Virus record (IMG/VR): IMGVR_UViG_3300035670_001172 | Coordinates: 1 to 25,094 of that record | Length of the DNA: 25,094 bases | Strand: one strand, 5' to 3' | From: a virus | Part shown: one piece after another, positions 2,023 to 19,888 of the stretch | Layout: every line of letters begins with the position of its first letter | Position numbering within the stretch: the stretch's first letter is position 1 | Made by a program: the position numbers and the translations under genes | The notes under the pieces: generated by a model | The model's database searches: none | Told to the model about the DNA's origin: nothing | The model's input: the letters and a program-made list of their open reading frames with translations, nothing else

Positions 2023-2166
2023 TCAAAACGGCGCTGGTTCAAAAGCAATAGGCTCAGGCTTGATCTTCTTAGGCTTGACCCATTTATTGCCTACAAATGC
2101 AGGAAACGGCCATTTGCCAGCCTTTACTGCTTTCTTGATTGTTGCGTCTACTTTCTCGTCTTTCAT
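2023..2166 (-). CDS. 47-residue basic phage protein
   Basis: A short gene encoding 47 residues, starting MKDEKVDATIKKAVKAGKWP and ending KPEPIAFEPAPF. Its ATG overlaps the stop of the loader-like gene (ATGA), and its TGA lies eight bases before the MazG-like start, partly forming that gene's GAGG ribosome site. It fills exactly the gap between two solid genes. The protein is Lys-rich at the front (KKAVKAGKWPFPAFVGNKWVK) and Pro-rich at the end. I do not recognise a family. Support comes from spacing and coupling, not homology. Confidence 0.6.
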   Translation of the reverse strand: MKDEKVDATIKKAVKAGKWPFPAFVGNKWVKPKKIKPEPIAFEPAPF

Positions 2167-2477
2167 GCTCGCCTCATCAGTGATTTAAGTTTGCTGATCT
2201 CTTGCAATCCTCGCTCTTTATCAATCGGAGCAGCAAGCATTTTCACGATAGGCGGCGGCGCCATCCGACAAACGGCACGAAACTGGATGACATTCGGCGG
2301 TCTGTCTGGCAAGCATTCAAGACCGTAAGCAATCTCATGCGGCCGAAATCCTGAGAGTTCTTTAGCCCAGTTTTGCATGACTTCTTGGATCTGAACGTCT
2401 CTGTACTGATCCATAAAAGCCTTGCCATAAGTAAGCGCCATCTTTTTGAAGATGACCTCAATGATTTGAATGTCCAT
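2163..2477 (-). CDS. Replication protein P-like / helicase-loader-like phage protein
   Basis: A 104-residue protein. The first two thirds contain the pattern F-x-x-x-A-x-x-YG, then QNWAKELSGF, HEIAYGLECLP, PPNVIQFRAVCR. This resembles the short conserved core of phage replication P-type proteins, where a W-x-x-x-L helix is followed by a 'PP-x-x-x-x-F-x-x-x-C' segment. Lambda P loads DnaB helicase at the origin, and the position directly after a DUF1376 replication protein fits that role. The protein is much shorter than lambda P (233 residues), so it may be only the conserved core or a different adaptor. It starts with a one-base overlap (TAATG) on the upstream stop. Confidence 0.55.
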   Translation of the reverse strand: MDIQIIEVIFKKMALTYGKAFMDQYRDVQIQEVMQNWAKELSGFRPHEIAYGLECLPDRPPNVIQFRAVCRMAPPPIVKMLAAPIDKERGLQEISKLKSLMRRA

Positions 2478-3196
2478 TAGCCCTCCAGCAGGTCTTGGTG
2501 GGGTGTAATGTCGATTTCTCGTCGCTTACCAAAAATGGCTTCTATGTTTTGCTTGTATAAATCGTCTTTCTTGACCTCTTCCGTGACCCACTCAGCCTTA
2601 AAGCCTCTCCAGCCCCTAGCGCAGCAAAGCTGAAGAACCTTTTCTAACGTCATGCCAGCATTCACGGCTTCGCGTTTGATGCCTTTCAGCGCTGTTTCAG
2701 TAAGCGGTGATTTGTTAGCCTTCCTAAGCGCCAAAAAGTCTGACCAAACAGATTCGCTAACATCATCAGGCTTAAGCGAGCTTGCCGAGCTCTTCTTAAT
2801 AATTGGTTGTTGGTTATTGGTTATTGGTTCTTGGTTGTTGGTTGGGATCTGTTTGGCATCTGATTTCAGACCCTTTTCTAATTCCCATCTAATCTGATTC
2901 GCAGCTTTTGCAGACTTGGCTTTGCGTTGATACTTCTTTATTTCGCCATCAATCCTCTGATGCGTATACGATTTCAGATCCTCGTCATATCTGAAAAACG
3001 TACGCAACAGAATACGAACACAATCAAGATCGTCCCTAGCGCCAATCTTAAAAGCCAAAACATCAACATCGTCTGGTAGTGGGTTCTCTGACTCGTAATA
3101 AAGCCAAATAAGCCTGAGATAAAAGTAGCATTCCTTGGGGCTTAACGAAACAGTGTCGCGTAAAAAGTCCCCGATATGATGCGGGTAGTAGTGCAT
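2477..3196 (-). CDS. DUF1376 replication-initiation-type protein
   Basis: A 239-residue protein. The N-terminal DUF1376 domain (about 1-100) opens with HYYPHHIGDFLRDTVSLSP and has the RLIWLYYESENPLP helix. DUF1376 proteins are common in phage replication modules and are thought to act like lambda O, binding the origin. A low-complexity linker (about 118-132) contains TNNQEPI and TNNQQPI. The C-terminal part (about 148-205) contains VWSDFLALRKANKSPLTETA and CARGWRGFKAEW, typical of the same proteins. AAGGGAAG lies just upstream of the ATG. The linker DNA is a perfect tandem heptamer array, described separately. Biochemical function is inferred from family and neighbours. Confidence 0.8.
   Translation of the reverse strand: MHYYPHHIGDFLRDTVSLSPKECYFYLRLIWLYYESENPLPDDVDVLAFKIGARDDLDCVRILLRTFFRYDEDLKSYTHQRIDGEIKKYQRKAKSAKAANQIRWELEKGLKSDAKQIPTNNQEPITNNQQPIIKKSSASSLKPDDVSESVWSDFLALRKANKSPLTETALKGIKREAVNAGMTLEKVLQLCCARGWRGFKAEWVTEEVKKDDLYKQNIEAIFGKRREIDITPHQDLLEG
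2803..2844. repeat. Six perfect tandem TTGGTTN heptamers (candidate origin iterons)
   Basis: Six consecutive 7-base units, TTGGTT followed by G, A, A, C, G and G, fill 42 bases inside the linker of the DUF1376 gene. The period is 7, not a multiple of 3, so the first six bases are held constant across all three codon phases; protein-level selection for a repeated peptide would not by itself require that. Lambda carries its origin iterons within the linker-coding part of the O gene, so by analogy this may be the phage replication origin. Simple slippage expansion is the main alternative. Confidence 0.75.
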
Positions 3197-3706: not shown

Positions 3707-3784
3707 ATGAGGAAAATAGAATGGATGGCTTACATAGCATTGGGAATGTTTTACGGGGTTCTAATGTTCCTGTTCGTGAGGTAA
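3707..3784 (+). CDS. 25-residue single-span membrane peptide
   Basis: A very short frame that opens the rightward operon. It begins MRKIEWMAYIALG, continues as an uninterrupted hydrophobic run and ends FLFVR: one predicted membrane helix of about 18 residues with basic residues at both ends. GGGG sits six bases before the ATG. Its TAA lies two bases before the ERF start, and its last codons supply the GAGG of the ERF ribosome site, so the two are probably coupled. It could be a genuine small membrane protein or a translated leader that controls ERF expression. I do not recognise a family. Confidence 0.5.
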   Translation: MRKIEWMAYIALGMFYGVLMFLFVR

Positions 3785-3786
3785 AG

Positions 3787-4389
3787 ATGAACGTCTACAA
3801 CTTAATCGCAAAAGTATCTGCCGATCTTTGCCAGCATGGAATCTCTAAAGACCGCAAGAATGCTCAGCAGTCCTACAACTTTCGCGGGATTGATGACGTT
3901 TACAACGCCCTGGCTCCGATCATCAGCAAGCACGGTCTGGTGATTCTGCCTCGAGTTATGCGTCGGGAAGTCTCCGAGCGCATGGGCAAAACCGGATCGT
4001 CACTCTTTTATGTGGTGGTCGAGGCTGAGTTCGACTTTGTCTCTTCGCACGATGGAACTAAGCACACGGTTAAGACGTTTGGCGAAGCGATGGATTCAGG
4101 GGATAAAGCTACTAATAAAGCTATGAGCGCCGCTTACAAGTACGCAGCCTTCCAGACGTTTTGCATCCCCACAGAGGGCGATAACGACGCTGACGCGACC
4201 ACACATGAAGTAAAAGCAGAAACTCCAGAGTTCACAGAAAAATTGATGCTAATCGCGGCAGCAACCAAAGAGACCTTGAAAGAAGTGTATGAAAAGTATT
4301 ACAACGAATACAAGGATTATCCCAATCTGCAAAAGCAGATCATCAAGGTTAAAGATCAACGTAAAACAGCATTAGGAATAGGACAATGA
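3787..4389 (+). CDS. ERF-family single-strand annealing protein
   Basis: A 200-residue recombinase of the ERF superfamily (P22 Erf type), which anneals complementary single strands during phage recombination and circularisation. Characteristic blocks are QSYNFRGIDDVYNALAPII (about 28-47), LVILPRVMRRE, and the Gly/Ala block GEAMDSGDKATNKAMSAAYK followed by FCIPTEGD. The C-terminal 60 residues are a charged helical tail. I chose the ATG five bases after GAGG; a longer frame starting 22 codons earlier would run through the preceding small gene. Together with SSB and the YqaJ exonuclease downstream it forms a complete Red-like set. Confidence 0.9.
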   Translation: MNVYNLIAKVSADLCQHGISKDRKNAQQSYNFRGIDDVYNALAPIISKHGLVILPRVMRREVSERMGKTGSSLFYVVVEAEFDFVSSHDGTKHTVKTFGEAMDSGDKATNKAMSAAYKYAAFQTFCIPTEGDNDADATTHEVKAETPEFTEKLMLIAAATKETLKEVYEKYYNEYKDYPNLQKQIIKVKDQRKTALGIGQ

Positions 4390-4730
4390 ACACAGTAAAA
4401 GCGTTAGCTATAGATAAAGCGTTAAGACTGCTTAACGCGTCTGGATGCAAATATTTTGTAATTGACGAAGAAGGTAAAACTTACGGTGAATTGCCAACCG
4501 CAAAAAAACTTAAAAACCCACGAAAGTACAAACCGGGATTAATGGCTAATTATTTCAAACCTTTTTTGATTGACGTAAAAATTGGGGATGTCGTCGTCAT
4601 TCCTTTTAATGACTTTGACCCAAGAACTTTATCTGGCGCAATTACCGCTTATTTGTCTGGCAATTGGGGCAAACAATCTTATAAGTCTTGCACCACAAAA
4701 TCTTCTGTTGAAATATTGAGGTGCTCATGA
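4386..4730 (+). CDS. Conserved phage protein of unknown function
   Basis: A 114-residue protein coupled to ERF by ATGA. It contains KALRLLNASGCKYFVIDEEG, a basic middle (AKKLKNPRKYKP), GDVVVIPFNDFDPRTLSGAI and a closing SVEILRCS. The pattern, two small alpha/beta halves with a 'GDVV-x-x-P' turn, recurs in phage recombination operons as a conserved hypothetical; I recall no defined role. The basic centre is compatible with nucleic-acid binding. This gene is visibly more AT-rich than its neighbours. Confidence 0.65.
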   Translation: MNTVKALAIDKALRLLNASGCKYFVIDEEGKTYGELPTAKKLKNPRKYKPGLMANYFKPFLIDVKIGDVVVIPFNDFDPRTLSGAITAYLSGNWGKQSYKSCTTKSSVEILRCS

Positions 4731-5050
4731 GAGACCCTCACGCAGCGGTTGACTACATCCTAAAACATGCTGGCAAGTTTGCAGAAGCTCGCGCTCAGCG
4801 TGTTTATTTGGAAGAGTTTAGGAAGAGCAAGAAAGCGCTTCTAATGCAGCTAAACACGGCTCAGCCAATCTCGGCGCAAGAGCGTGATGCGTACGCTCAC
4901 CCTGAGTATTTGGAGCTTTTAGAGGGCTTAAAACAAGCCGTGGAAATAGAAGAAAAATTACGATGGGATCTTATTGCTGCTCAGGCTCGCGTGGAAATTT
5001 GGCGCTCAGAACAAGCAAATGCCCGAGCAGACATTAGGAATACGCAATGA
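4727..5050 (+). CDS. Conserved coiled-coil phage recombination-operon protein
   Basis: A 107-residue, almost wholly helical protein beginning MRDPHAAVDYILKHAGKFAE. It continues with YLEEFRKSKKALLMQ, AQERDAYAHPEYLELLEGLK and RWDLIAAQARVEIWRSEQA. This family recurs next to ERF/RecT, SSB and HNH-type genes in phages, which suggests a recombination or replication accessory role, but none is established. The ATG overlaps the previous stop and follows GAGG by five bases; a GTG two codons earlier is less likely. Confidence 0.75.
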   Translation: MRDPHAAVDYILKHAGKFAEARAQRVYLEEFRKSKKALLMQLNTAQPISAQERDAYAHPEYLELLEGLKQAVEIEEKLRWDLIAAQARVEIWRSEQANARADIRNTQ

Positions 5051-5337
5051 CTTATCGGAATCAAAAACTGTTGGAAACCGTACGCGAGTTTGAGTGTGCT
5101 TTATGCGGCGCTGAAGATGGAACGGTGGTGGCCGCACACAGCAATCAACTTAGAGACGGGAAAGGAAAAGGCATAAAGGCACACGACTATAGGATTGCAG
5201 CACTTTGCTACAGGTGCCACATGGCTATAGACCAAGGGCACAGAATGAATAAGCAGGAAAAAGAAGCAATGTGGGAGCAAGCACATCGCACAACAATCGG
5301 TTGGTTATTTGAAAGAGGAAAAGTATGGGTTCGGTAA
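5047..5337 (+). CDS. DUF1364-type zinc-binding nuclease-like protein
   Basis: A 96-residue protein with an HNH-like zinc arrangement: C17-x-x-C20, H31 in VAAHSN, the stretch GKGKGIKAHDY, then C54-x-x-C57-H58 and D62. DUF1364 proteins are small phage proteins related to HNH/Ref-like nucleases and occur in recombination regions; cleavage has not been shown for most. The position between ERF and SSB supports a recombination nuclease role. It starts in an ATGA overlap and its end overlaps the SSB start by 13 bases. Confidence 0.8.
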   Translation: MTYRNQKLLETVREFECALCGAEDGTVVAAHSNQLRDGKGKGIKAHDYRIAALCYRCHMAIDQGHRMNKQEKEAMWEQAHRTTIGWLFERGKVWVR

Positions 5338-5690
5338 ACAAAGCGATCATTATTGGTAACGCTGGCAAAGATCCAGAGACTAAGTACACAGACGCAGGGG
5401 TTGCGGTTTGCACTTTGACGTTAGCAACCAAACATTCTTGGAAAGAAAAAGACGGTCAGCGCCAGGAAAAGACTGAGTGGCATCGCGTTGTCTTTTGGGC
5501 AAAGCTGGCCGAAATCGTCGATAAGTACGTTAAGAAAGGCTCCCAGGTTTACATTGAGGGTCGAATTGAAACCCGAAAGTGGACAGACAAAAACGGTGTT
5601 GAGCGTTACACCACAGAGATTGTTGCTGACCAAATGCAGATGCTTAGCAGCAAGAAACAAGAAACCTACGATGATGAGGCACCGTTCTGA
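5325..5690 (+). CDS. ssb: Single-stranded DNA-binding protein
   Basis: A 121-residue bacterial-type SSB that coats single-stranded DNA during replication and recombination. The OB fold spans about residues 1-108, with IIIGNAGKDPETKYTDAG, the TEWHRVVFWAKLAE strand, YVKKGSQVYIEGRIETRKW and YTTEIVADQMQML. The acidic tip DDEAPF at the C-terminus is the protein-interaction tail (DDDIPF in E. coli). The linker is very short, typical of phage SSBs. GAGG lies seven bases before the ATG. It partners the flanking ERF and exonuclease genes. Confidence 0.95.
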   Translation: MGSVNKAIIIGNAGKDPETKYTDAGVAVCTLTLATKHSWKEKDGQRQEKTEWHRVVFWAKLAEIVDKYVKKGSQVYIEGRIETRKWTDKNGVERYTTEIVADQMQMLSSKKQETYDDEAPF

Positions 5691-6280
5691 TGGAACAAGG
5701 AACCGAGGAATGGAAACTTGCTCGGCTCGGGAAGGTGACAGCTTCCCGCGTCTCCGCTGCTAGAGCAAAAAAAGGTACGGCAACGCGAGCCGACTACATA
5801 GCCGACATCATTACAGAGCGTCTTACAGGCTCACCAATCGAGTCTTATACGAATGCTTATATGGAGTGGGGAACAGCCAACGAACCGCTCGCAAGGGCTG
5901 CATATGAGATTAAAACGGGCATCTGGGTCGAGCAGGTTGCCATCGTCAATCACCCGACGATTCCAAACTTTGCAGCTTCGCCTGATGGTCTAGTCTGGAC
6001 GGATGGATTACTAGAAATCAAATGCCCAAAAACGTCCACCCATTTAGGGTGGATGATGAAAGGCGAGCCACCTTCCGAACACAAACACCAGATGCTTGCA
6101 CAGCTTGCTTGTACGGGTAGAGAGTGGGTTGATTTTGTATCGTTTGATCCACGGCTTCCAGAGCATCTCCAGTTGTTTGTTGTGCGGTTTCAACCAGAGC
6201 GCAAAGACATTGAAGACTTAGAAAAAGACGTAATGACTTTTTTAGCGGAAGTTGACACAATGCAAAGGAAATTAGGATGA
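5690..6280 (+). CDS. YqaJ / lambda exonuclease-like recombination nuclease
   Basis: A 196-residue member of the YqaJ viral recombinase family, which includes lambda Exo (226 residues). It should resect double-stranded DNA 5' to 3', producing single strands for the ERF annealing protein. The catalytic triad spacing matches lambda Exo: D99 in SPDG, E109 and K111 in LEIKCP. Also visible are E65 (NEPLAR), H133-Q134 and Q138 in HKHQMLAQL, then REWVDFVSFDPRLP. The start overlaps the SSB stop by one base (TGATG). Confidence 0.95.
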   Translation: MEQGTEEWKLARLGKVTASRVSAARAKKGTATRADYIADIITERLTGSPIESYTNAYMEWGTANEPLARAAYEIKTGIWVEQVAIVNHPTIPNFAASPDGLVWTDGLLEIKCPKTSTHLGWMMKGEPPSEHKHQMLAQLACTGREWVDFVSFDPRLPEHLQLFVVRFQPERKDIEDLEKDVMTFLAEVDTMQRKLG

Positions 6281-7770: not shown

Positions 7771-9645
7771 CTACGTGAAGAACAATAAGAAAGTCTGCGA
7801 TGGTGCAACACCATCGCTGATAGCTGAGGAAATGATCGTGCAAGACTCTATCGTTACCGTATCAAATGCACAGATTGTAATGACCTGATCGCTTATAGAG
7901 CAAGACTCGAAAACACTAGCGGAAATTAAATTTTCCGCATCAAAGGCGTCAGCAGCAGTGGACGATTCGTTAACACTTGAAAGATATGCAACACCTCGAT
8001 TTGTTTCATCGCTACCAATTGCGCTTTCCGCAATTTCAGCTTGAATAATGTTGCTAGAAAAAATAACGTCTGAAGCTATAGATGATTCACTAATTGCGCC
8101 ATCATGAATTTGATCTGAAGTGATGCTGTCACTAGCTATTGCAAACTCATCTACCCTTTCTTCAAGACCGGTTGCATCAAAAATAAGAGCGGTTTCAGCA
8201 ACGCTTGCTTCTAAAATTGCCTCGTTAGTCGTCAAATCCTCTAGCGTTAAAACTTCGGATACAAGCGCGACTAAAGTATGAAGTGATTCTGTACCGTCGG
8301 ATGCGCTAGACGATTCAGAAATTAAACCCAGTTTGATTTGTTCGCTATCTACCGCATCACTTGCCGTGGCTGACTCATCAACAGAGTCTTGGTAAACAAC
8401 ATTTGAATCCGTAATATCCGCGCCAATCGCACTTTCAGCGGCGGCAACATCAAACGATATGTTTGCAGCGGTAGCATCTGCACCAGTTGCGGTTTCTGCT
8501 ACATCAACTTGTGCTGATAGGGTTGTTTCTACAGCGTCGGTAGCTGTAGCTGTCTCTGCTTCTTCGACGTTTTGTGTGGCTAGCGTGGAGATACTGTCTG
8601 TAGCCGTAGCCGTTTCGGAAATTACACCTTCTATAGCACCCGAGCTGAACGTTACTGTTCCAGAGCCAGCCGTGATGGTGTAGGTGTTAAAACCACCTGA
8701 AGTTACTGTGGAGTATGTGACCCCAGAAAAAGTTGCGTTGTAAGTGTCTTTAACCCGCAGGACAACAACACCATTACCGCCGCGTTTACCCGTTGCACTG
8801 CCATATACGCCACCACCGCCACCACCTAGACCATCAGTACCTTGGGTTGCAACAAGAAAAGAACCGGAGTTACCCCCACCGCCGATACCCCCTGGCTGCG
8901 ATACGTTTGAGTTACCCCCCGCGCCACCACCTGCGTAATAAGCAGATGTGATTGATGAAAGCCTACCTGCACCACCCGCGCCACCTGCGTTACCCGCAGC
9001 ACCATTGCCGTTACCACCGCCACCGCCACCGCCCATAGCGATGCTTGAGCCATTACCCCCATTGCCACCTTGAGAACCTATACCGCCGGGGCCAGAAGAT
9101 GAGAAACCACCACCACCAGAGCCGCCATTACCACCGGCAACAGAAACGCCATTACCGCCTTTACCACCACCCAACGCAGTGAGGGAAGCAAATACAGAAT
9201 TACCACCATTTTGTGCGGCAACACCTGTAGCCGAGCCTGAACCGCCTGTACCGACCGTGACTGTATAAGCAGTGCTTAAATCGAAGGAAGCATTCAAAGC
9301 TTCAAGGAACCCACCGCCGCCGCCACCGGCCCCCATCGTGGTCCCTGTGCCCGAGCCGCCCGATCCACCGCCACCAGCGATGATGAGATAGCTAACAACG
9401 AAGTCAGAACCAACAGTTGCGTCAGAACCCGAAGCCGTTTCCGAGATGGAAACGTCAATAACATTAATTGCTTGGGTGGTATCTGATGCAGTTGCTGTTT
9501 CAGCTACGGCTGCTTGTGCATCAAGGAGGGAATCTAAAAGGTCTGTGCCGGTCGCTGATTCATTGACCAGATTGTCAGCGCTTGGGGTTACTGCGCCTGC
9601 GGTACTCGCATATGGGGTTTGTGCATAAGCGCTAAAACCGAACAC
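7771..9645 (-). CDS. Glycine-rich phage adhesin/tail-fibre protein with 20-residue repeats
   Basis: A 624-residue virion surface protein, starting at a GTG preceded by AAGG. After MFGFSAYAQTPYAS, a leader resembling those of other aquatic-phage surface proteins, come three copies of a repeat beginning E-[ST]-A-x-x-x-D (Glu at 29, 49 and 69). A glycine-rich domain of about 240 residues (roughly 91-330) follows, with GGGGG runs and a closing VTSGGFNTYTITAGSGTVTF. Then come 14 more repeats. Repeat spacing is exactly 20 residues except one 16-residue unit and the degenerate last copy. The end is VAPSQTFLLFFT. Likely a fibre or adhesin; the receptor is unknown. Confidence 0.8.
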   Translation of the reverse strand: MFGFSAYAQTPYASTAGAVTPSADNLVNESATGTDLLDSLLDAQAAVAETATASDTTQAINVIDVSISETASGSDATVGSDFVVSYLIIAGGGGSGGSGTGTTMGAGGGGGGFLEALNASFDLSTAYTVTVGTGGSGSATGVAAQNGGNSVFASLTALGGGKGGNGVSVAGGNGGSGGGGFSSSGPGGIGSQGGNGGNGSSIAMGGGGGGGNGNGAAGNAGGAGGAGRLSSITSAYYAGGGAGGNSNVSQPGGIGGGGNSGSFLVATQGTDGLGGGGGGVYGSATGKRGGNGVVVLRVKDTYNATFSGVTYSTVTSGGFNTYTITAGSGTVTFSSGAIEGVISETATATDSISTLATQNVEEAETATATDAVETTLSAQVDVAETATGADATAANISFDVAAAESAIGADITDSNVVYQDSVDESATASDAVDSEQIKLGLISESSSASDGTESLHTLVALVSEVLTLEDLTTNEAILEASVAETALIFDATGLEERVDEFAIASDSITSDQIHDGAISESSIASDVIFSSNIIQAEIAESAIGSDETNRGVAYLSSVNESSTAADAFDAENLISASVFESCSISDQVITICAFDTVTIESCTIISSAISDGVAPSQTFLLFFT

Positions 9646-13472: not shown

Positions 13473-14156
13473 TTAAGTTTGAATAGCCACCGCGATCACA
13501 TCCCAATAAGAACTATTACTATTGTAGATGCAACCAACATAAATCACTTTGCCGGCAATTGTCGCCGCCGGTAGCAAAGTGCTTATCTCTCGATAAATTG
13601 GGTCCCACGTTAAAGAGCGCGGCGTTCCGTTATCAAGAATTCTAAAGATCAATTTATCTCCGTTAAGAGGAGAACCAACCGGAGCCAAAATGGAAAGAGA
13701 TGAAGCTAAGGCGGTAAAGTCGTACTGATCATAAAGAGCAATGGAAGGCGTAACCGTGGTTAAAGTAGCAGTGCTATTTACCCTTGGGTCAATGCGCTTA
13801 CTTGTTAAGGTAGCCGATCCATTGCTCGTAACCATACCGCCAGTGGCGTTCAAGTTAATTTGCAACGCCGACAAAACGTCAGTCCCTAATGCGCCAGATG
13901 AAACCCATTCCGTATCTGACACAAAGTAAGGAATACCGCCCGTTGTACCTGAGACAGACAGCACAGGGCTTGATGTTGGGTTTGCCACAGAAACAATACC
14001 GCCTGTCCATGTAACGCTACCAACACCACCAATCGGACCCGTGGGGCCCGTAGGGCCACCCGCTGGGCCCGCCGGTCCGGTGGGCCCAATAATGCCCTGG
14101 TCAATAGTCAAAGCAATTTGATTGCCTGACGTTACAACCATATTGACATCGCTCAA
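13473..14156 (-). CDS. Collagen-like phage fibre protein, TTG start
   Basis: A 227-residue protein. It starts at a TTG that overlaps the previous stop (TTGA) and has GGGGTG five bases upstream; the nearest in-frame ATG, five codons later, lacks a ribosome site. About 23 residues in, a short collagen-like segment (GPTGPAGPAGGPTGPTGPIG) should form a trimeric stalk. The rest is a beta-rich domain of the type that ends phage fibres. Its repeat DNA is very like the two collagen-like tracts in the J-like gene, and recombination between them is possible. Confidence 0.75.
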   Translation of the reverse strand: MSDVNMVVTSGNQIALTIDQGIIGPTGPAGPAGGPTGPTGPIGGVGSVTWTGGIVSVANPTSSPVLSVSGTTGGIPYFVSDTEWVSSGALGTDVLSALQINLNATGGMVTSNGSATLTSKRIDPRVNSTATLTTVTPSIALYDQYDFTALASSLSILAPVGSPLNGDKLIFRILDNGTPRSLTWDPIYREISTLLPAATIAGKVIYVGCIYNSNSSYWDVIAVAIQT

Positions 14157-14699: not shown

Positions 14700-15764
14700 T
14701 CACGATTTTAACATTGCTTGCTTGTAAAAAGCTAGGTTATTTTTGAGCCTCTCATCATTTGGTGATAATTCCGCAGCCGCTTGACCGTAACGCACCGCCT
14801 CTTCTTTGAGTCCTAAATTGTGCGCCGAGATTGCCGCTAGGTCATAAGGCTTTGATCCCCATACTTCAGGGTCACAGGTGTAAACCAGCTCTTTATCTTT
14901 GATCTCTAGCGCCATCGTGGAAGCGTGGAAACACTCTTTCCACATATGCTTTCGGTATGCAGACGTTGCAAAATCAACCCAAGGCTCCCTAGTGCCTGGA
15001 GCTTCTGCAATAGCCATGCGATACCACTTCAAAGATTGCCAGTAATCAATCTTTTCATCGTAAGCCTTCCCCAATAGTCGCATGGCATAGCATCGTTCGT
15101 TTTGCCAAGTGGCTTCAGGCATAGCAAGATAAGAATTCAATGCAGCAATAGCCTCATCCCAAAGACTATAAAAGGTTAGCTCTCGCGCAAAGTAAAAAGC
15201 GTTTCGAGGGCATCGCGGATCTTCTTTTACCGCCATCCTGAGCAGGTCTAAATACTGCCCCCGGCTTTTAGTTGGATCAGGATGATGTGAAACCAAGAGT
15301 TTGTCAGTGTACGCATAGACTTCCTTTGTGCGCTGATCGGGTCTTGGGTATTCGTGCACCGGATGATGCCAATGATAGCCAACTCGATGGTGAATCTTTT
15401 CATAAAAGAAAAGAATGTTGTGCCCCCAATTAAACTTATACCTAAGTCTAGTTGTCTCTGGGGTCCATACCCGTTCAATTTCCTCGCGCCATCCGGGTTC
15501 TAAAACCTCATCCAAGTCTAGAGAAACACAAACATCGTAGTCGCCAGGAATAAGACATAGCGCCGTATCTCGCGCCAAGTCAAAACGCCAAGGTTTAACC
15601 GATATATCGTAGACAGTAGCGCCGCATCCCCTAGCTAAGCTCGCAGTGTTATCCGTCGATCCTGTGTCAGCAATTAAAATCATGTCGGCATCTTTTGCCG
15701 AATCACAGAATTTTTTTACAAATTGCTCTTCATTTTTTGCAATTGCGTACACGCAAATTTTCAT
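14700..15764 (-). CDS. Family 2 glycosyltransferase with TPR-like C-terminal half
   Basis: A 354-residue protein. The GT-A domain has the nucleotide-sugar motif IADTGSTDNT (31-40), WRFDLARDTAL and the metal-binding D83-x-D85 (SLDLDEVL). The C-terminal half (about 175-350) is helical with TPR-like pairs (FYFARELTFYSLWDEAIAAL, LKWYRMAIAEAPGTREPWVD, EEAVRYGQAAAELSPNDERL). It should transfer a sugar from an activated donor, either to a virion protein or to host surface or DNA components; position in the tail module favours a virion or cell-surface target. AAAGGAC is upstream of the ATG. Donor and acceptor are unknown. Confidence 0.85.
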   Translation of the reverse strand: MKICVYAIAKNEEQFVKKFCDSAKDADMILIADTGSTDNTASLARGCGATVYDISVKPWRFDLARDTALCLIPGDYDVCVSLDLDEVLEPGWREEIERVWTPETTRLRYKFNWGHNILFFYEKIHHRVGYHWHHPVHEYPRPDQRTKEVYAYTDKLLVSHHPDPTKSRGQYLDLLRMAVKEDPRCPRNAFYFARELTFYSLWDEAIAALNSYLAMPEATWQNERCYAMRLLGKAYDEKIDYWQSLKWYRMAIAEAPGTREPWVDFATSAYRKHMWKECFHASTMALEIKDKELVYTCDPEVWGSKPYDLAAISAHNLGLKEEAVRYGQAAAELSPNDERLKNNLAFYKQAMLKS

Positions 15765-15814: not shown

Positions 15815-18800
15815 CTATTTTATTTTTTGTTTTAACGATTCTACTTCTTCGGATAGCTCTTGTATGGCCTTGACAAGCGGCGCTATAAATTGGTTGTAAT
15901 CAATGTTTTGAATGTTTCTTGCGTCAGGCACGATAATTGTCTCATCATCATCTGTGATTGATTCAACTTCATCCGCAACGAAACCATGCAGCCTTGAAGC
16001 TGGATGAACGTTTTTGCGATACACAATCGGCTTTAATTGATTGATCCAACTTAGACCTCTCGTCTCTGGTTGTATATCGTGCTTTGTGGTTCTGTCAGAA
16101 ACAGCAGCAAGATATGTGACCAAAATCTCATTAACATTTCCGTAATACAAATCAACTGACGTGATCGAATTTGATGTCGTGAAATACAAACCACCGTTTG
16201 CATTTGTATTCATCGCCGTTAAAGTGCCGCCAGCTCTTGGCTGATAACCAAAAAATGACGAACCTCTAGCTGCGGTTGCAAACGATGGTATTGCGCTCGT
16301 GACAGTTACCGCGCTGCCGATTGTGCTGACAGAAATGCCAACGCCCGCAGAAACGCTAGACACAGCTCCAGAAGCTCCGGTCGGACCTGTCGCTCCAGTC
16401 GCGCCGGGTGGCCCAGCGGGACCCGTGGGACCCGTGGGTCCGGCAGCACTTGGGGATGCCCAAGTTCCATCATTTCTCAAAAAGGTAGATGTGCTACCCG
16501 CTGGCGCTGCAATCGTATAGCCATTCCACCTTACAGATATATTTGAATTTAATTCAAATGTCGCGCCACTAAAAAATCCAGATCTAGAATTTGCGTCACC
16601 AGATGCAACAGTGCCAACAATGGCTTTAGTGCCCGCTCCCGTCGCTAGCGCGTATATCGCTTGAGAATTGCTTCCTCCGCTTGCCCTCGTTTCTAAAGAT
16701 GTTCCGTTATACGAATTGACAAAATATCCAGCCAAAGCCGCCGAATTGTTTCCGTAAGCCTCGACGCCTTTACCAATTCCAGCAGAAGCCCTTACCGCAG
16801 ACGATGAATATGTGGATGCAGAAACTCCATAACCACTATCAGATGATGCTTGAATAGCCGCAGATATACCTTTTACAGAAATACCAAGGTCTTGTGAAAA
16901 TTGAGAATTAATGGCAACAGCCGGTTCTCCGCTTGAACCAGTTGATGCGCCCTCAAATCTTGCAAGCCCTCTTGAATAAACGCGATTAACAACCGCTGCG
17001 CCAGAATCTTTATCTAAGTACCATCCAGCCGTTCCAGGGTTCCAGCCAGTAACAGTCCAACCTGATACAGAAACCGGAAAGGTTGTGCTTAATGTAATTA
17101 CATAAGTCCCTGTCAATCCTGAGCCGGTTCCGTTTGCAGAAACAGTTCCAAAATATTCGATGCCCTGCGTATAGTTGTAGGCATACAAGACCATTCCAAT
17201 TGATATTCGACCCGTCGTTACCGAAGTGACGGTCATCGTGCTTGTGCTTGTTCCCGAGGTAAAGTTTGCAGTAAATTGAGCAAATGGCGGGAACCCTCCA
17301 TTCCAATTGTCAGACAATATGGATTGAAAGACATTGAAAGCCACCGGTACTTGCCATGTTGTTATATTTGTTGTCGGTGAATAGCTACCGTAAGAAGCCC
17401 AGATTGTCTGCCCGATAACAATCGTCGGCATACTTGCAGTCCAACCAGAAGGGACGGAAGAAGGCCCGGTGGTTGGTGCGGGAGTGGCGGGATACCCACT
17501 TACCTGACTTTGCTGTAAAAATACAATTCTTTGAACATCTACCGGGGCACCTGTTGGCCCAGAACTTCCGGTAGGGCCCGTGGGCCCAGACCCCCCCGTG
17601 GGGCCCGTGGGCCCGGCAGCCGGAGTTGGCGACCATACAAAAGAACCCGAATAAGCAGATCTAACCAAACTTACATCATTGCCAACCAAGAACCCAAAAT
17701 AATAAGTATCTGGCGCTAAATTTATATCAGTAAAAGTATAGGTTGAGCTATTAACAAATGTTTCGCCGTTAATAAGCTGAGCAATATTCCACAGCTTCCA
17801 ATCCGAATCCGCCGGAGTCGCTACTGTCGTGTAGTACAAACCTATTCTTGTGCATCTTCCTGTTGCTGGAATTGTGCAGATGACATCAAACGTAGGCGGC
17901 TGTTGCGACGGTTGAGGATTCGTAACGACAGGAGCATTCGCCGCAGAAATGTAACCAGCAGCAGGAAGCTGAGAATTTGGAGCTGCCGTAAACGCTGTAA
18001 TACTTGCATCGTCATAAACTACAGCGTTGTATTCCGAAAGTTCCAGCGTCGCGCCAAGATTGCCATCATCGACCGTCGCTTCCGAGACTTTCATAACCCG
18101 GAACAGTTTGTTAGTCCAACCGTAGTCTGCGTTAGTAATATCAACGACATCACCAGCATCCACTTGAATGCCAGGATAAGTAGCAGTAATCGTAACGATC
18201 AAATCTTCTCTGGCTTGTTCTAGCCTGCGATTTCCTAAATACTGGGCTTGCACAGAGTCATTCGTAAACTCTAGCGTTGTGGTCTGCTTGTTAGCCGGTT
18301 CATTGGGATACAGAAGTCCCGCTGGGGTTTCCATGTAAACAAGGTCGGGTTGATCCCTGTTTAACTTAGACGGAAACTCAATTTGTATCTGGTTTATCTG
18401 CTGATTTATATCTATAGCAGAGACTCTGATCTCACCGATTAGATTTGTATCGTTGAATGAGAAAGTGGACGATTCAGCCTTGTTTATAACAACCGACCAA
18501 AGCCCAGACGCCGCGTTATATGCCATCCAAGAATCGCAGCACTCCAACATCTTTTCGACGTTATCAAGCACCGGTCTACCAGTATCAACCACCCCGTTGA
18601 TTCTGTATCGAGCTTGTGTAGCAGACCCTCCGCCGGCTGGCGTGTAGGTGATGGTCTGATCAGAGTAAGTATTAAGAGCGGTTGCGCTTGTAGAGTCAAC
18701 CAATCCCGTCATGCCAGCGCCGTAGCGAGCGTCGGTCATGTAGTCGTACCAAACATCCCCAGGCTTTGCCACTGACCCGCCTTTGGGGTAATGTGAGCAA

Positions 18801-19447
18801 TAAAAGGTGATCGGAAGAAGACCGGTTGTCCCTGCGTCTGCGTTGTAATTTAATTTAACAATTGCAAAAGCTAATCCGTTCATTTGCCGGCCAGATGAGG
18901 GCCAGCGCAAAGCGACAGGAATATCCGCCCCTCCCATTGTCACGTTAGGAGCGGTTCCGTTCACTGCGGTTATGGTTCCAGCATTCGTTGATGTATAAAG
19001 ACTGATGTAAAGATTACCGCTGATCTTTGTATCTACATTTCCATCGCCATCAGTAAGAGAAACAACTTTTGTTTGGTCGGTTCCGTCAAAAGTGACCAAT
19101 CTATCGCCGTAGTAAAACTTTGTACGGTCATAGGAAAATGTTGCGGAAGCGTCGGACGATATGGAAGATATCGCCATAACGTAATACATTGTCTTTTGAT
19201 TGCTAGAAAGCACCGCGTCGACAAACGTACCTCCTAACCACGCATCGCCATAAACGACAGGAATTGAATTGTTGCTAGCAGGAGGAACTTGCTGTCTTGC
19301 ACCGGTATCTTGAGACTGCGGAGGCTTAGCTCCAAATGCCCGAGTAACGACAAATGACACCGCAAAGTTGATGGCAAACGTCGCTGCTGCCAACGCAACG
19401 CCCGTTAACTGAACACCTACTGCGGCTAAGATAATGGATGCTGGCAT
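15815..19447 (-). CDS. J-like tail hub/host-specificity protein with collagen stalks and S74 chaperone
   Basis: A 1210-residue fusion. A hydrophobic N-terminus (about 5-40) leads into a J-type central tail hub (about 45-600, with VPPASNNSIPVVYGDAWLGG, VDAGDVVDITNADYGW and fibronectin-like strands). A first collagen-like tract lies at about 609-634, a Ser/Thr/Gly-rich beta region after it, and a second GPTGPTG tract near 1000-1025. The C-terminus (about 1105-1210) is a peptidase S74 intramolecular chaperone with S1117-D and K1122 in SDRTTKHDIQP, then LHGFVADEVESI. The S74 domain normally trimerises the fibre and then cuts itself off. Hub and receptor-binding fibre are thus one polypeptide. Confidence 0.85.
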   Translation of the reverse strand: MPASIILAAVGVQLTGVALAAATFAINFAVSFVVTRAFGAKPPQSQDTGARQQVPPASNNSIPVVYGDAWLGGTFVDAVLSSNQKTMYYVMAISSISSDASATFSYDRTKFYYGDRLVTFDGTDQTKVVSLTDGDGNVDTKISGNLYISLYTSTNAGTITAVNGTAPNVTMGGADIPVALRWPSSGRQMNGLAFAIVKLNYNADAGTTGLLPITFYCSHYPKGGSVAKPGDVWYDYMTDARYGAGMTGLVDSTSATALNTYSDQTITYTPAGGGSATQARYRINGVVDTGRPVLDNVEKMLECCDSWMAYNAASGLWSVVINKAESSTFSFNDTNLIGEIRVSAIDINQQINQIQIEFPSKLNRDQPDLVYMETPAGLLYPNEPANKQTTTLEFTNDSVQAQYLGNRRLEQAREDLIVTITATYPGIQVDAGDVVDITNADYGWTNKLFRVMKVSEATVDDGNLGATLELSEYNAVVYDDASITAFTAAPNSQLPAAGYISAANAPVVTNPQPSQQPPTFDVICTIPATGRCTRIGLYYTTVATPADSDWKLWNIAQLINGETFVNSSTYTFTDINLAPDTYYFGFLVGNDVSLVRSAYSGSFVWSPTPAAGPTGPTGGSGPTGPTGSSGPTGAPVDVQRIVFLQQSQVSGYPATPAPTTGPSSVPSGWTASMPTIVIGQTIWASYGSYSPTTNITTWQVPVAFNVFQSILSDNWNGGFPPFAQFTANFTSGTSTSTMTVTSVTTGRISIGMVLYAYNYTQGIEYFGTVSANGTGSGLTGTYVITLSTTFPVSVSGWTVTGWNPGTAGWYLDKDSGAAVVNRVYSRGLARFEGASTGSSGEPAVAINSQFSQDLGISVKGISAAIQASSDSGYGVSASTYSSSAVRASAGIGKGVEAYGNNSAALAGYFVNSYNGTSLETRASGGSNSQAIYALATGAGTKAIVGTVASGDANSRSGFFSGATFELNSNISVRWNGYTIAAPAGSTSTFLRNDGTWASPSAAGPTGPTGPAGPPGATGATGPTGASGAVSSVSAGVGISVSTIGSAVTVTSAIPSFATAARGSSFFGYQPRAGGTLTAMNTNANGGLYFTTSNSITSVDLYYGNVNEILVTYLAAVSDRTTKHDIQPETRGLSWINQLKPIVYRKNVHPASRLHGFVADEVESITDDDETIIVPDARNIQNIDYNQFIAPLVKAIQELSEEVESLKQKIK

Positions 19448-19450
19448 GAT

Positions 19451-19888
19451 CTACTCTCGAAAGAAGGTCGCTTGCATGGGTTTGAAGTTGTATCTTGTGT
19501 AATCAATATTGGGCGAATTCGGCATAAGACTTGTACAGACAATCTGAACCCTTTTTTGGTCTAGCATGTCTTGAGCAAGTTTGTTAAACCTTAGCCAAAG
19601 CCTTCCCCCAACGGATGTATCTCTAAACTCAGGAACTACCCACCACGCCACCTCATGCAGCTCTTTAACGGATCTGTTCCAAAAGTTACTAGTCACATAA
19701 GCCGCCAAGAACCCTCGAAACTGATCGTCTATAAGCACAAAACCTCGGCCTTTGATCATCTCGTAGAAGAGCGCACGAACATGCCCTTCGTTCTGGTTTT
19801 GCTTTAGAGTTTCTATTCCTGCTTCATCGGCGTAAGCCTTCATCATTTCAATAAGATGCGGCATATCGTATTTTGTGGCGTATCTCAT
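19451..19888 (-). CDS. GNAT-like acetyltransferase in the tail module
   Basis: A 145-residue protein with a GNAT shape: MRYATKYDMPHLIEMMKAYA at the front, a strand GFVLIDDQFRGFLAAYV, the core strand ELHEVAWWVVPEFRDTSVGGRLW (read as VKELHEVAWWVV followed by PEFRDTSVGG) and a final NIDYTRYNFKPM. The usual acetyl-CoA loop Q/R-x-x-G-x-G/A is altered (R-D-T-S-V-G-G), so catalysis is uncertain. It sits exactly where lambda has K and I, between the L-like gene and J, and overlaps its upstream neighbour by ATGA. It may modify a tail protein or be a structural derivative. Confidence 0.65.
   Translation of the reverse strand: MRYATKYDMPHLIEMMKAYADEAGIETLKQNQNEGHVRALFYEMIKGRGFVLIDDQFRGFLAAYVTSNFWNRSVKELHEVAWWVVPEFRDTSVGGRLWLRFNKLAQDMLDQKRVQIVCTSLMPNSPNIDYTRYNFKPMQATFFRE

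Follow-up and report, generated by a model that had tools for sequence, protein, structure and literature searches.

Replication origins with repeats in or near the initiator gene

In phages of Gram-positive bacteria such as TP901-1, Tuc2009, and SPP1 (gene 38), a replisome organizer binds repeats that lie within or beside its own gene. In phage lambda and the lambdoid Stx phages, the origin repeats are in the middle of gene O, between the sequences for the DNA-binding and partner-binding domains. An easily opened, AT-rich tract follows these iterons, the gene for the helicase loader P comes next, and the repeats lengthen the protein (PMC7466680). Synonymous mutations in the iterons of lambda-type origins abolish plasmid establishment (PMC7466680). 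In the DnaA system, double-stranded DnaA boxes are followed, at a fixed distance, by short repeats that are bound as single strands (the DnaA-trio, or the motifs TTGT and TTATT in the DUE of E. coli; PMC10797057). The iteron plasmids RK2 and F have iterons plus a second class of repeats (13-mers) in the DUE, which Rep binds in a strand-specific manner (PMC10797057).

Here we analyze a viral DNA stretch of 25,094 nucleotides from IMG/VR ("the window"), in which a DUF1376 gene contains tandem 7-bp repeats (heptads), and the relatives of this gene. As in lambda O, the direct repeats of DUF1376 genes lie within the proposed initiator gene, between the sequences for two domains, and they are conserved as DNA. 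The comparison to lambda O in the initial annotation holds for the placement of the repeats, but not for the components: lambda has ~18-bp iterons and an AT-rich tract, while DUF1376 genes have 11- or 12-bp repeats and a 6–8-bp ACCA array, and DUF1376 has no match to a Phage_rep_O model (PF04492). The Phage_rep_O genes that we sampled had no heptads; one had 21-bp repeats and another had 15-bp repeats. The Gram-positive replisome organizers are, by their descriptions, from other protein families and have other repeat units. The two-array geometry of DUF1376 genes resembles the DnaA system, but the proposed DUF1376 initiator lacks a DnaA-type ATPase, the repeat unit is 6–8 bp instead of 3, and single-strand binding is putative here. 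Finally, the repeats of RK2 and F are longer and, unlike those of DUF1376, are outside the rep gene.

The DUF1376 gene of the window

The gene (2477–3196, minus strand) encodes a protein of 239 amino acids, which we propose is an initiator or replisome organizer. It belongs to PF07120 (E = 1.1e-19; 71.1 bits, with a curated cut-off of 30.1). This was the only Pfam family that matched the protein; the Phage_rep_O model did not. Among the PHROGs, the N-terminal part matches "primosomal protein" and residues 101–205 match "replication initiation O-like", and the C-terminal part resembles phrog_678 ("O-like").

In the AlphaFold2 model, a confident winged-helix domain with a long helix (residues 1–109; 2870–3196, minus strand; pLDDT mostly 95–98) is followed by a linker of low confidence (residues 110–137), which is predicted to be disordered, and by a helical C-terminal domain (residues 138–222; 2531–2785, minus strand). 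In relatives, the C-terminal domain is swapped independently of the N-terminal domain. Structural neighbors in the PDB are generic winged helices, with weak matches to the N-terminal domain of DnaD (Foldseek probability 0.72–0.91). Searching the PDB sequences with a profile of the N-terminal domain gave no credible match.

The heptad array (2802–2844) lies within the linker-coding part and reads as six TTGGTTN units on the plus strand, exactly as the initial annotation had it. The units at 2803–2844 are TTGGTTG, TTGGTTA, TTGGTTA, TTGGTTC, TTGGTTG, and TTGGTTG, so that six of seven positions are invariant. On the minus (coding) strand, the units at 2802–2843 are AACCAAC, AACCAAG, AACCAAT, AACCAAT, AACCAAC, and AACCAAT. 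This array begins at offset 353 of the gene, in codon 118. The heptads cross the codon phase, as was also pointed out initially: three units make 21 bp, or seven codons. Among 20,000 codon shuffles that preserved the protein, none had a chain of six units, and the maximum of five was reached 10 times. No other array of this kind is found elsewhere in the window.

As for the rest of the window, a recombination module (3721–6280, plus strand; ERF annealase, an HNH-like protein, SSB, and YqaJ exonuclease) is divergent from the replication genes. A large protein with repeated SETATGTD/ESATASD motifs (7771–9645, minus strand) adjoins lysis and endolysin-like genes. Two proteins of the tail region (13473–14156 and 15815–19447, both minus strand) have collagen-like GPTGPTG repeats, and the longer one ends in an apparent S74-type chaperone domain. 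A glycosyltransferase-like protein (14700–15764) and a GNAT-like acetyltransferase (19451–19888) are also encoded among the tail genes, on the minus strand.

Distribution of the array in the DUF1376 family

Scanning IMG/VR for four exact AACCAAN units yielded at least 120 arrays. Among the 120 arrays listed, 107 are inside open reading frames with a DUF1376 domain, and in all 107 the A/C-rich unit is on the coding strand. Because this set was found via the array itself, we also gathered DUF1376 genes by the N-terminal domain alone, from IMG/VR, from GTDB genomes, and by PF07120 searches, which gave 105 non-redundant genes. Of these, 65 contain four or more exact ACCA units, spaced at a constant pitch (the codon-shuffle mean is 1.7). 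The pitch is 7 bp in 50 genes, 6 bp in 14 genes, and 8 bp in one gene. ACCA ranked first among all 256 tetramers in this tandem-unit test.

With a score that is blind to the sequence of the unit, 79 of the 105 genes have a strong 6–8-bp array in the linker, as compared to 9 of 200 control ORFs (other ORFs of the same loci). The remaining 26 genes mostly have shorter or degenerate versions of the array. Named phages with arrays include Acinetobacter phages AbP2 and Scipio, Thalassomonas phage BA3, Bordetella phage vB_BaM-IFTN2, and Moraxella phage Mcat32. On the other hand, ydaU from the Rac prophage of E. coli K-12, which is a DUF1376 gene (L277, 5120–5977), has no ACCA array. The array is thus a feature of the DUF1376 family, although not all members carry it. 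The linker of ydaU carries a CCCCCCCTAAATCCCCCCC stretch. We had considered mapping the array onto oriJ of Rac, but we dropped this: ydaU lacks the ACCA array, and we did not find the position of oriJ relative to ydaU in the literature.

Among 398 sampled genomes of Pseudomonadota, 28 encode a PF07120 protein above the cut-off. Five exact AACCANN units were found in just 5 of 398 cellular genomes and never in a DUF1376 gene, so this exact pattern is not a useful genome-wide marker. The hexamer AACCAG is not a specific marker either: only 23 of 115 such arrays are in DUF1376 genes, and most of the others are in low-complexity genes of the EPEPEP type. Arrays of the AACCANN type are also present outside of replication genes, in cellular genomes (L490, 1500–1600, and L486–L489) and on one contig with three of them (L087); these are apparently intergenic simple repeats.

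The array is constrained as DNA

To compare codons, we took genes that were gathered irrespective of their linker and defined the linker motif in them as the peptide N[Q/H]xPxTx. Third bases that are specified by the AACCANN unit are nearly fixed. The observed fixation (with the expected value in parentheses) is 0.985 (0.587) for AAC, 0.954 (0.550) for xxA, 0.923 (0.323) for CCA, 0.923 (0.193, with the rare ATA included) for NNA, and 0.938 (0.343) for ACC. At the two wobble positions not specified by the unit, the bases vary.

In 206 pairs of close relatives, the AACCA core diverged by 1.7%, versus 31% for the NN positions, most of which change the amino acid; the core value is somewhat trimmed because array recognition allowed each unit no more than one mismatch. 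In the N-terminal domains of the same pairs, divergence was 39.5% at wobble positions and 10.6% at first and second positions. The same core also occurs at a pitch of 6, 7, or 8, where it encodes peptides as different as NQNQ, PTPT, NQEPITN, and NQRTIEPK; among the hexamer and octamer classes, which retain the DNA core, we also see PIPI and EPEP. Judging from these comparisons, the ACCA core is constrained as DNA and not as peptide. The initial annotation had singled out relatives with the same linker peptide and a broken heptamer as evidence against its reading. We checked for this and saw the opposite: the wobble positions that the unit specifies are nearly fixed.

Some arrays have changed in concert, with every unit reading ACACAAN, AAACAAN, ACCCAAN, ATACAG, or AGACAG. 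We had intended ACACAAN as a pure control heptamer, but this failed: 12 of its 24 arrays are in DUF1376 linkers, so it is a concerted variant. A G-quadruplex on the TTGGTT strand would need four runs of GG in all members, and we rejected it because the ACACAAN and AAACAAN variants have no GG on either strand.

It seems unlikely that the array is just a simple repeat of the ordinary kind, prone to slippage, in a linker permissive enough to tolerate it. Tandem heptads do occur occasionally elsewhere, as in the five cellular genomes mentioned above, and AACCAG hexamers encode EPEPEP in unrelated genes too. But a repeat of this sort would show no bias towards particular genes, and its core and spacer would diverge alike. 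Instead, arrays are present in only 9 of the 200 control ORFs. Nor would slippage be expected to freeze the core while leaving the NN positions free, to keep this core at three pitches, or to hold a fixed register with 11-bp repeats (described below).

A second array and natural chimeras

The initial annotation overlooked a second array, directly upstream of the heptads, which modifies its picture. The best period just upstream of the heptads is 11 bp in 39 of the 65 genes. The sequence of this upstream array varies by subfamily (for instance, AACGGACGTTC, AACAGGTGTTG, or GCGAACGCAAT). In the clade of the window, the upstream unit is 12 bp, AAATCAGATCTG. The window itself retains two degenerate direct repeats of ~12 bp (2844–2866, minus strand), which read AAATCAGATGCC and AAACAGATCCC on the coding strand. 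Clearer copies of AAATCAGATCTG are present in the close kin L126 and L129, and L018 and L056 also have clearer copies of the upstream array. The two arrays are in register: among 34 pitch-7 genes scored, 21 have their last in-phase AAC exactly 4 bp ahead of the first heptad, and these form the commonest class.

The array is where near-identical DNA gives way to unrelated DNA in ten pairs of genes. Six of these pairs share the array and the C-terminal side but differ in their N-terminal domains and upstream repeats. These six pairs imply that the upstream repeats travel with the N-terminal domain and that the heptads are common property. Chimeras with the crossover at the heptads include L073 versus L187, L078 versus L113, L080 versus L060, and L065 versus L137.

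Because the upstream 11/12-bp array is subfamily-specific and moves with the N-terminal domain, it is a better candidate than the heptads for protein-specific iterons. The heptads are nearly identical across very different N-terminal domains, and they look more like a common element for opening or loading.

Might the array be primarily a recombination junction for swapping the N- and C-terminal domains of initiators? The ten pairs fit this explanation, as do the ERF, SSB, and YqaJ exonuclease proteins of the window, but crossovers arise at any conserved stretch, and the lambda origin occupies the same inter-domain position. Also, a junction would leave unexplained why there are several pitch classes, why the heptads keep their register with the 11-bp units, and why they are nearly identical across deep divergence. 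We consider this explanation improbable.

Neighboring genes

In the window, the next gene encodes a protein of 104 amino acids (2163–2477, minus strand), and its start overlaps the stop of the DUF1376 gene. It is a candidate P-like helicase loader, but it matches only phrog_1524 (E = 4.8e-6), a family without an assigned function. Across 90 genes that follow DUF1376 genes, 28 match phrog_109, the P-like helicase loaders, and 27 match phrog_1524. Another ~13 match DnaC-like loaders, and a few others are helicases or primases. In relatives, the next gene is commonly a putative P- or DnaC-like loader, in line with the P-like neighbor of the initial annotation; the window's own neighbor has just the phrog_1524 match.

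These neighbors are relevant to another explanation, that the array is an operator or a partition-like site by which the protein regulates its own gene, and not an origin. The predicted winged-helix domain would suit a regulator, and short tandem units could fit cooperative binding. But the site is deep within the coding region, beside genes for helicase loaders or helicases, and the PHROG assignments point to replication, so we doubt that this is its role.

A proposed origin within the gene

The DUF1376 loci combine constraint at the DNA level, family-wide occurrence, two arrays in register, exchange of cassettes at their junction, and a neighboring gene for a loader. A repeat that is kept letter-for-letter across the family, beside a set of repeats that changes with the subfamily, is therefore a strong candidate for a family-wide start site of replication. 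We propose that the linker of DUF1376 genes carries a bipartite, cis-acting DNA element inside the gene for its own initiator and that it is most likely the phage's replication origin (with a probability of roughly 70%).

From the sequences and models, we infer binding, strand opening, and origin activity, as follows. The winged-helix domains of several DUF1376 proteins would bind the upstream 11/12-bp repeats. As each unit is about one helical turn, these domains would line up along the same side of the helix. The 6–8-bp ACCA/TGGT array that adjoins the repeats may then open or be held single-stranded, and the C-terminal domain, together with the loader from the next gene, would deliver the replicative helicase.

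The array is in the lowest tenth of its gene's G+C content in 40 of 65 genes, and its AT-richness is marked only in GC-rich genes. The initial annotation had suggested looking for a peak in cumulative GC skew, but for both the window and phage AbP2, the skew tracks the direction of the genes, and the array does not stand out. The degenerate upstream repeats of the window, the match of its neighboring gene to phrog_1524 alone, and the lack of an ACCA array in E. coli ydaU also count against the origin.

Two explanations that do not involve a DNA site are less plausible than the alternatives above. An RNA-level element, such as an unstructured stretch of mRNA with only A and C, is very unlikely. 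The A/C strand is the sense of the mRNA in all 107 DUF1376 arrays among the matches listed, but this orientation is already dictated by the requirement that the linker peptide be hydrophilic, and directly adjoining the heptads are 11-bp repeats that look DNA-like in their helical pitch. The idea that the peptide is what matters, as a flexible and hydrophilic N/Q/P/T linker with the DNA repeat as a by-product, fits the predicted disorder and the hydrophilic residues that A/C-only repeats yield in every frame, but it is already disfavored, and we give it almost no weight: within the motif, it is the synonymous sites that are frozen and the amino-acid-changing ones that vary, and the pitch classes keep the DNA core with completely different peptides.

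The literature that we found on DUF1376, which was mainly titles and abstracts, reports no binding, unwinding, or replication for any DUF1376 system, and it contains no description of the two-array layout or the unit lengths for this family. Searching the literature for the repeat sequences returned only primers and chance matches. In-gene phage origins are already known; as far as the literature found goes, the arrangement in two arrays, the lengths of their units, and the involvement of this family are undescribed.

The same array in unrelated initiators

AACCAAN arrays are also present in the linkers of two initiators that are not DUF1376 proteins (in L066, ~2525–2551, and in L094, ~690–716 on the reverse strand). 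Both belong to phrog_2447, which is annotated as "replication initiation protein". In L329 (1219–1246) and L339 (9695–9722), genes that match DnaD-like or replication initiation PHROGs have GAACCA hexamers between the domains, and these encode EPEPEP.

Because the phrog_2447 initiators carry the same array, we tentatively raise the possibility that the ACCA/TGGT heptads are a portable origin module of unrelated initiators. The heptads might be a common element for strand opening or helicase loading and so correspond, in phages, to the DnaA-trio, with each family of initiators adding adjacent iterons of its own. This would allow initiator domains to be swapped freely.

If the proposed in-gene origin is right, one short sequence rule would show where replication starts in thousands of phages whose origins have not been mapped. 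DUF1376, a large family of "unknown function" in phages and prophages, would gain a function. And because natural chimeras already exist, these phages would offer a clean system for separating protein-specific iterons from a shared opening element by experiment.
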